From Fibrobacter intestinalis (GTDB taxonomy: Bacteria > Fibrobacterota > Fibrobacteria > Fibrobacterales > Fibrobacteraceae): a DNA stretch of 45,775 nucleotides. Where the stretch lies: positions 1 through 45,775 of the forward strand of contig NZ_FUWU01000024.1 of assembly GCF_900167415.1 (NCBI RefSeq). The letters are read 5' to 3'. Of the stretch, positions 12,630-44,463 are shown one piece after another; position 1 is the first letter of the stretch; the number at the start of each line of letters is the position of its first letter. Both the position numbers and the translations under genes were made by a program. The notes beneath the pieces were generated by a model that made no database searches, was not told the origin of the DNA, and was given only the letters and a program-made list of their open reading frames with translations.

Positions 12630-12707
12630 GTACTTTCAAAAATCAGCGATTAGCATTAAAGCTGTCAGCAACGTGAGAAGCCCGTTTTTAAAATTCAATG
12701 CGGAAAT

Positions 12708-12780
12708 GGGAATTATATATAATATTCCACCAAATACGCGCGATTCAAAATTTTTCGCAAGAGAGAACTTCTTTTCAAAC
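12708..12780. repeat. Intergenic repeat related to 4231-4312 and 43868-43945
   Basis: It contains the near-palindrome GGGAATTATATATAATATTC, then CGCGATTC, TTTTTCGC and GAGAACTTCTTTTCAAA. The first words match 4231-4312; the last matches 43876-43890. It has no coding potential. Confidence 0.45.
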
Positions 12781-12849
12781 GGGGCATTTTTCTCGCTGAC
12801 CGCTATGCTTCGCCAGTCTATGAGTCTTGGGAACTTGTTCCGTAAAAAG

Positions 12850-12875
12850 ATTGCCGCGCTACGCTCGCAATGACG
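12850..12875 (-). repeat. CGTCATTGCGAG-type dispersed repeat
   Basis: On the minus strand this reads CGTCATTGCGAG, then CGTAGCGCGGCAAT. The same element occurs on the plus strand at 44072-44106, 44327-44358 and 44372-44403. Very similar short repeats are known from intergenic DNA of many unrelated bacteria. Confidence 0.7.
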
Positions 12876-12940
12876 AGGTACTGGATCGGATAGCTCCGCC
12901 ATTGGGAACTTTTTTCCGTCACCCCGAACCCCAGAGGGGT

Positions 12941-13096
12941 TATACGACACTTGTCAATTTATTGACTTAGTGGAGTTATCCTCTATGTGGATATACGACA
13001 CTTGGTAACTTTGTTACCTTAGTGGAGTTATACTCTATGTGGATATACGACACTTGGTAACTTTGTTACCTTAGTGGAGTTATACTCGAAGTGTAG
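12941..13096. repeat. Three-unit tandem hairpin array
   Basis: Three direct units (12941-12991, 12992-13043, 13044-13096) of 51-52 bases start TATACGACACTT and end near TCTATGTGGA. Each holds a hairpin: an outer CACT/AGTG pair and an inner stem. In unit 1 the inner stem is GTCAAT/ATTGAC; in units 2 and 3 it is GGTAAC/GTTACC. Sequence changes in the stem are thus matched on both arms. The third unit ends differently (CGAAGTGTAG). It lies between the SpmAB gene and the 3' end of pepT. A two-unit inverted copy is at 44127-44230. Confidence 0.9.
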
Positions 13097-13171
13097 AAGC
13101 AATCCTTTTATATAAAGCCCCGCTGAAATCATCGTATTCAACACCATTCATTCCTTTCCTGCGACCTTTCT

Positions 13172-43380: not shown

Positions 43381-43453
43381 TGCTTCATAGCTCAGTTGGT
43401 AGAGCCCCTGACTGTTAATCAGGTTGTCACTGGTTCGAGTCCAGTTGAAGCAG
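43381..43453 (+). tRNA. tRNA-Asn (anticodon GUU)
   Basis: A 73-base cloverleaf: acceptor TGCTTCA/TGAAGCA with discriminator G, D arm AGCTCAGTTGGTAGAGC, anticodon stem CCTGA/TCAGG with loop CTGTTAA (GTT at 43414-43416), and T arm CTGGTTCGAGTCCAG. The 3' CCA is not encoded. It is preceded by a strong promoter and followed by a terminator, so it is a single-gene unit. No truncated second copy was found in the window. Confidence 0.97.
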
Positions 43454-43945: not shown

Positions 43946-44071
43946 ACCCATGAGCCTTGGAAGCTTCGCTTCCTTTAGGCGAATTGTCCCTTGCAGGGAT
44001 ACTTCAACTACGGAATCGGAGATTCCTAGTTTCAGGGATGCAAAGCCGTGGGAATCCACACCAGCGGCACG

Positions 44072-44106
44072 TCATTGCGAGCCGCGATAGCGACGTGGCA
44101 ATCCTA
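44072..44106 (+). repeat. CGTCATTGCGAG-type dispersed repeat
   Basis: It reads CGTCATTGCGAGCCGCG, then ATAGCGACGTGGCAATCC. It lies just before the inverted hairpin array, and the other end of that array is bounded by GCAATGACG (44248-44256), the reverse complement of the start of this repeat. Confidence 0.75.
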
Positions 44107-44126
44107 TCTGCGGAAAAAGGATTGCT

Positions 44127-44230
44127 TCTACACTTCGAGTATAACTCCACTAAGGTAACAAAGTTACCAAGTGTCGTATATCCACATAGAGGATAACTCC
44201 ACTAAGTCAATAAATTGACAAGTGTCGTAT
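44127..44230. repeat. Two-unit inverted copy of the hairpin array
   Basis: Read on the minus strand, this is the array of 12941-13096 with one unit fewer: one unit with stem GTCAAT/ATTGAC and one with stem GGTAAC/GTTACC, ending CGAAGTGTAG and AAGCAATCC exactly like the first copy. The outer CACT/AGTG pairs are kept. The copies are thus the same element with variable unit number. Confidence 0.9.
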
Positions 44231-44326
44231 AACCCCTGCGGAGTTCGCAATGACGGTCGCTTTCAAATGTGACTGATTTTCTCCTTGGCGAGCGCACAAT
44301 GACGGAGCAACCCGAACCAGCATTCC

Positions 44327-44403
44327 GTCATTGCGAGCCGCGTAGCGACGTGGCAATCCAAGCCAGCGGCACGTCATTGCGAGCCGCGTAGCGGCGTGGC
44401 AAT
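44327..44403 (+). repeat. Two tandem CGTCATTGCGAG-type repeats
   Basis: Two copies, 44327-44358 and 44372-44403, each start CGTCATTGCGAGCCGCGTAG and end GTGGCAATC, with a 13-base spacer (AAGCCAGCGGCA and neighbours). The spacer word CAGCGGCA also precedes the copy at 44072. They end 60 bases before the recombinase gene. Confidence 0.8.
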
Positions 44404-44463
44404 CTGTTTCTTTTTCGAGAATTTTTTGCAAACTTTGCACCGTAATGTAATAAAGGAGATTCC

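Follow-up and report, generated by a model that had tools for sequence, protein, structure and literature searches.

The window, the whole 45,775-nucleotide stretch of Fibrobacter intestinalis DNA analysed here, carries at 12941-13096 an array of three hairpin units of 51-52 bp. Such an array had been claimed in a preliminary description, and it was confirmed by folding and by Tandem Repeats Finder, which reported a period of 52 over 12941-13087 (2.8 copies, 92% matches). The array lies between two converging genes, as had also been stated, in a gap of 542 bp. Each unit consists of a hairpin, H1 (about 25-26 nt), followed six bases on by a 13-nt hairpin, H2. H1 has an outer stem, CACT/AGTG, which an internal loop (one T facing TT) separates from an inner stem capped by 2-3 nt. 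On the plus strand, H1 of unit 1 (CACT-T-GTCAAT-TT-ATTGAC-TT-AGTG, 12947-12973) scored 40.7 bits with model R2 (E 1.7e-9), and its H2 (TCCT-CTATG-TGGA, 12979-12991) has the spacing and size found in other subfamilies. H1 of unit 2 (CACT-T-GGTAAC-TTT-GTTACC-TT-AGTG, 12998-13025) and that of unit 3 (13050-13077) are identical and scored 41.8 bits each. The H2 of unit 2 (TACTCTATGTGGA, 13031-13043) is weak, being recognized by position only, and its stem is partly mismatched; the H2 of unit 3 (TACT-CGAAG-TGTA, 13083-13095), read from the sequence, differs from unit 1 by a paired change (TCC/GGA to TAC/GTA). Folded as DNA, the three single units were more stable than dinucleotide shuffles (z -2.96, -4.54 and -3.46), and the entire stretch folded as RNA also exceeded its shuffles (z -3.26).

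The matched difference between the inner stems, GTCAAT/ATTGAC in unit 1 and GGTAAC/GTTACC in units 2 and 3, was likewise found as described. Units 2 and 3 arose by simple duplication of 52 bp, as shown by two-unit copies elsewhere in the genome, and the pair of units 1 and 2 recurs through the genome, copied as a block. The stem contrast inside the window is therefore one independent event rather than several, and the real evidence for covariation lies in the other subfamilies and in other genera.

The element is wider than its units. A composite repeat, a palindrome of the CGTC type reading CGTCACCCCGA-ACCCC-AGA-GGGG ... GAAGCAATCC, extends over 12917-13105 (plus strand) and encloses the three units together with a small hairpin to their left, H0 (CCCC-AGA-GGGG, 12929-12939). 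The borders of the composite are the same in about 25 copies of the same genome. Among copies, H0 keeps its stem and varies in its loop, and its position is that of H0 in the Fibrobacter subfamily. The left arm of the window copy is a CACCCC variant that does not pair with GCAAT, and the second, inverted CGTC arm that is usual elsewhere is missing. The remaining two of the five units implied by the preliminary description (44148-44224) belong to a second composite copy on the minus strand (44131-44255), recovered by search and model matches, whose H1 hairpins lie at 44147-44174 and 44199-44225. In total, the covariance model detected five good H1 hairpins in the window and a sixth, more distant one of another subfamily (43953-43981, plus strand; 25.8 bits with R2, E 4.2e-5), which has an outer stem GCCT ... 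AGGC and is followed by the H2 TCCC-TTGCA-GGGA.

Several further repeats adjoin these elements. Positions 12827-12841 hold a broken GTCT-subfamily H1 (GTCTTGGGAACTTGTTCC, then GTAAAAAG; 11.1 bits with R2), and a second dispersed repeat (12705-12845), parts of which match more than 20 places in the same genome at 73-91% identity, borders the array on its left. A cluster of more CGTC repeats, CGTCATTGCGAGCCGCG...GTGGCAATCC, occupies 44071-44405 beside the second composite and downstream of a tRNA gene (43381-43453). On the minus strand, 12636-12950 contains a 104-aa ORF, most likely spurious, which encodes the REP-type peptide PRHCERSAAIF.

When the window stretch was used as a query, about 29 matches were obtained in its own genome, for which the counts given here refer to 444 kb of sequence plus searches. 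The number of units, which the preliminary description proposed to compare between strains, varied from one to three among these copies; slippage or unequal exchange may account for such changes. Most copies are set within CGTC-tagged REP palindromes. A full copy reads CGTCATTGCGA (or CGTCACCCCGA)-ACCCCnnnGGGGTTATACGA-units-TCGAAGTGTAGAAGCAATCC, and in most cases an inverted arm that ends in CTCGCAATGACG comes next; full copies are thus dimers of CGTC-tagged REPs with hairpins in one arm. The opposite arm often holds a second subfamily, GTCT-T-GGGAAC-TT-GTTCCC-TT-AGAC, with 53 matches. A structural descriptor that required only outer pairs ending CT/AG, bulges of T and TT and pairing of the inner stem gave 34 strong matches in the 444 kb. 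A Markov control produced no match of this strength, and nine altered descriptors yielded 0-6. These matches include versions with the outer stems GTCT, GCCT and ATACT. H2 covaries as well, as seen in the forms TCCC-TTCCA-GGGA and TCTC-TTCCA-GAGA of other subfamilies.

A covariance search of Fibrobacterota, suggested in the preliminary description, was carried out on 168 genomes with a model built from 22 hand-chosen H1 sequences. H1 was detected in 92 of them, 91 belonging to the window's own family, Fibrobacteraceae, and one (G095) lying outside it. The stems showed paired substitutions across these genomes, so the units are neither confined to the window nor altered on one side only. Matches within the family span six of eleven genera; the model found no H1 in any of the 15 genomes of genus g6. 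The genome outside the family has the same layout, TACT-T-AGAAAT-TC-ATTTCT-T-AGTA followed by the H2 TACCCTTCAGGGTA. Genera g5 and g8 each possess a sequence of their own (GACT-T-AGCACT-TTT-AGTGCT-TT-AGTC and TTGCACT-T-GGCGA-TTT-TCGCC-TT-AGTGCAA, respectively), and outside a CTT/TTAG core the subfamilies are wholly unlike each other. Loci in two genomes of genus g5 (G009 and G023, L283-L311) are long mosaics in which CTT/TTAG hairpins of many kinds stand in a row with small hairpins resembling H2. At two seemingly corresponding sites (L195 and L229), whose right flanks are 79% identical, the stems of H0 and H1 and the loops of H2 differ and all stems are paired, reflecting either replacement in place or two insertions. 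No match to the element was obtained in viral contigs or in phage and plasmid collections, and the curated covariance models of Rfam gave nothing relevant at gathering or relaxed thresholds.

In a test unbiased towards any fold, public genomes were scanned with fixed flanks and a free core (GGACAGCACTT-N11-20-AGTGCGCATGG), which yielded at least 120 stretches. All of the matches listed came from Fibrobacter or Fibrobacterales, bar one Treponema bin (Treponema sp. RUI346, L157), a short contig that is probably misbinned. The 121 copies among the matches listed comprised 37 core types, 35 of which form at least 5 bp; shuffled cores formed 1.2 bp on average and 5 at most. At 698 pair positions in these copies, 693 pairs were Watson-Crick, 2 were G-T and 3 were A-C. 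In an alignment of 39 distinct H1 model matches from several genera, which was fitted to the structure, 93.8% of cells pair and 115 cells are changed on both sides. Its covariation score was reached by none of 500 shuffles, and displacing the partner column by 1-3 positions reduced pairing to 28-61%. Figures from an alignment of hand-picked good hairpins are illustrative, the free-core test, the 698-pair count and the 39-sequence alignment being fairer; a further H1 alignment mixes two stem registers and understates pairing. The internal loop is constant, T standing opposite T or TT (rarely AT, CT or GT) between a C-T and an A-G pair. Paired changes in several subfamilies and genera thus support the original claim that the fold, not the primary sequence, is conserved.

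The same cores do not drift in place. At 11 pairs of orthologous sites, 171 core positions showed 0 differences, whereas 12.8 would be expected if they changed as fast as the flanks (Poisson p 2.8e-6, an optimistic value because the fixed outer flanks select intact copies). Such unchanged cores may mean that gene conversion is at work or that the element serves its host, and that it is not maintained by mobility alone.

Insertion is documented in wzt. A 54-nt module containing H1 is present in this gene in two genera (G001 and G016), and exactly 54 nt are missing from the homologues in G005, G004 and the window's own genome, which therefore represent clean empty sites. Many genomes carry the stretch found in G001 as a dispersed repeat. 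No clear target-site duplication was seen at this site, the only one examined to the base. The comparison with REP- and MITE-like repeats made in the preliminary description hence stands for its REP part, through the CGTC tag and the dispersed palindromes, while for the MITE part there is the wzt insertion with no clear duplication. A translational bypass element was considered for the 54-nt insertion and dropped, since the reading frame stays open through copies that lie in genes and bypass is unneeded.

Among the 121 copies, 39 lie in ORFs, some of these being spurious antisense frames, 28 in codirectional, 24 in converging and 13 in diverging gaps, and 17 at contig ends. In a Pfam scan, nine of ten ORFs with copies matched a domain. 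The domain match spans the insertion in RsmB, in the UPF0020 methyltransferase domain of an RlmL-like protein, in the ABC domain of Wzt and in the DEAD domain of a helicase. In-frame copies were found in genes for RsmB, GT4, RlmL-like, TilS, BtuF-like, Wzt, RluD-like and DEAH-helicase proteins. The TilS copies occupy two sites in two orientations in different species. Several in-frame palindromic insertions make one TilS gene (L203, 2372-4012) considerably longer than is typical, and a second species carries one elsewhere in the gene (L228). Copies would appear to be tolerated between converging genes and, if in frame, inside genes. By local GC skew, a weak preference for one replication strand was noted (67 to 38, p 0.006, in counts that include orthologues).

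The position between converging genes raises the question whether H1 and H2 act as RNA, as a terminator, a 3' structure stabilizing mRNA or an RNA that binds a protein, under selection for the benefit of the host. Converging gaps are indeed enriched, accounting for 24 of 65 intergenic copies compared with 60 of 284 gaps (p 0.01). The gap between the two genes, 542 bp in the window, shrinks to only about 80-95 bp between the matched ends in four relatives, and at least three of the four gaps hold an ordinary hairpin terminator (by reading of the sequence, one being confirmed by a scan). The repeats, together with others, were therefore acquired in this lineage; at this site they have replaced the ancestral terminator, which is lost. 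The constraint on cores at orthologous sites also favors a role for the host. However, an intrinsic terminator is a GC-rich hairpin directly before a T-run, and this is not what was found: no T-run follows H1, and the sole terminator-like match left in the gap (12854-12870) lies outside the units. Moreover, at least 12 copies reside inside conserved coding genes, in either orientation, and the strand of the element is not clearly tied to that of the gene (40 against 27, p 0.14). G-U pairs are not favored over A-C pairs, whichever strand is read, a pattern more in keeping with DNA than with RNA. We therefore consider a selected RNA role unlikely. Since H1 lacks a T-run, the only terminator-like match is outside the units and many ORF copies occur in both orientations, the suggestion that the array ends transcription or protects mRNA is unsupported as a general role; local effects on transcription would be secondary, and termination incidental at most.

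Paired changes could also arise from mutation alone, if template switching during replication copied one arm onto the other without selection on the fold. Template switching is known to generate multi-base compensatory changes and to keep stems perfect (PMC8794818), and half-changed pairs are almost absent in H1. Yet the process should erase the T/T(T) mismatch, which all subfamilies keep between two perfect stems, so that correction by template switching would not suffice by itself to keep it. Arm correction should also let the core drift, whereas cores at orthologous sites are unchanged. As the full explanation we regard it as rather improbable, although such correction probably helps to keep the stems perfect.

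Among known systems, the closest are the CGTC-tagged REP repeats described by Di Nocera 2013, who listed five phyla and did not mention Fibrobacter (PMC3733652). The repeats studied here share with them the CGTC/GTC end, a stem starting with AT, inverted dimers, intergenic and intragenic copies and the lack of a dedicated transposase. The tag (CGTC, or TGTC/CCTC), the AT-starting stem and the tail CC(A) were all found, with CGTCATTGCGA ... GCAATCC and GTCATCCCCGC ... GGATCT surrounding the modules. In contrast to the described loops of 4-5 nt, the loop or a stem arm here carries 50-160 nt of hairpin modules, and an H1 module with a constant internal loop is not described in that paper. By tag, stem, dimers and lack of a transposase the host repeats belong with the CGTC REPs, and they lack the short loop. 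Rickettsia palindromic elements, compared by description, are also palindromic and inserted in frame in unrelated conserved genes (PMC10969869), and RPE-4 and RPE-6 are themselves CGTC repeats. However, they come from another phylum, and the elements here have a 54-nt core of two hairpins with freely exchanged stems and use several reading frames instead of one conserved peptide. Integron attC sites resemble the element in having a variable terminal stem, constant flanks and a folded single strand; unlike these, the sequences read have no GTTRRRY/RYYYAAC boxes, and the element is dispersed singly or in short arrays without cassettes. In the openly accessible literature that was searched, we found no description of the H1 module or of such repeats in Fibrobacter.

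An ordinary REP mobilized by a RAYT, as in a REPtron, would share the imperfect hairpin, the high copy number and the dimers and mosaics known from BIMEs, and the stem irregularity is reminiscent of that serving recognition by TnpA-REP in E. coli. Y1_Tnp genes are present in the window's own genome. None of these is flanked by the repeat, however; the GTAG tag at the stem base is absent in all subfamilies read, and the stem is far more variable than in GTAG REPs. Y1_Tnp was not detected in genomes with 10-32 H1 copies (for example G006, G012, G016, G035, G041, G047 and G048), and IS110 is absent from nearly all H1-rich genomes. Both were therefore rejected as movers: the enzyme would be neither a Y1 transposase nor an IS110 recombinase, and we judge a RAYT system very improbable. 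Near the 121 copies among the matches listed, no gene recurred, bar one common lipoprotein family and syntenic orthologues.

We propose, with a probability of about 0.6, that the array belongs to a non-autonomous, dispersed palindromic element of the REP class in Fibrobacteraceae, recognized as a DNA hairpin through its internal loop. Within its H1 core, the stems may take any sequence as long as they pair, but the T opposite T or TT is constant; H2 follows, and the whole is usually housed in a CGTC-type REP. The structure, its covariation, the dispersal, the insertion with empty sites and the constraint on the core are supported directly by the data above. A trans-acting protein would read H1 as folded single-stranded DNA via the internal loop and then disperse the element. 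Protein binding seems the likeliest reason for the constant loop, by analogy with the E. coli REP, where TnpA-REP activity depends on the bulge and is lost once the stem is made regular (PMC8266576). More tentatively, H1 may be a mobile hairpin module specific to the family, whose mover reads only the fold and the internal loop and whose entry into REP palindromes and coding genes needs neither a Y1 nor an IS110 transposase.

The literature leaves open by what means CGTC-type palindromes spread in the absence of a transposase (PMC3733652). The present family provides a clean test case: many variants share one fold and a constant loop, the empty sites in wzt are exact, and H1-rich genomes are devoid of the usual enzymes. 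It also lends itself to telling selection on a DNA fold apart from template-switch correction, and adds an example, from outside Rickettsia, of palindromes inserted in frame in conserved genes.
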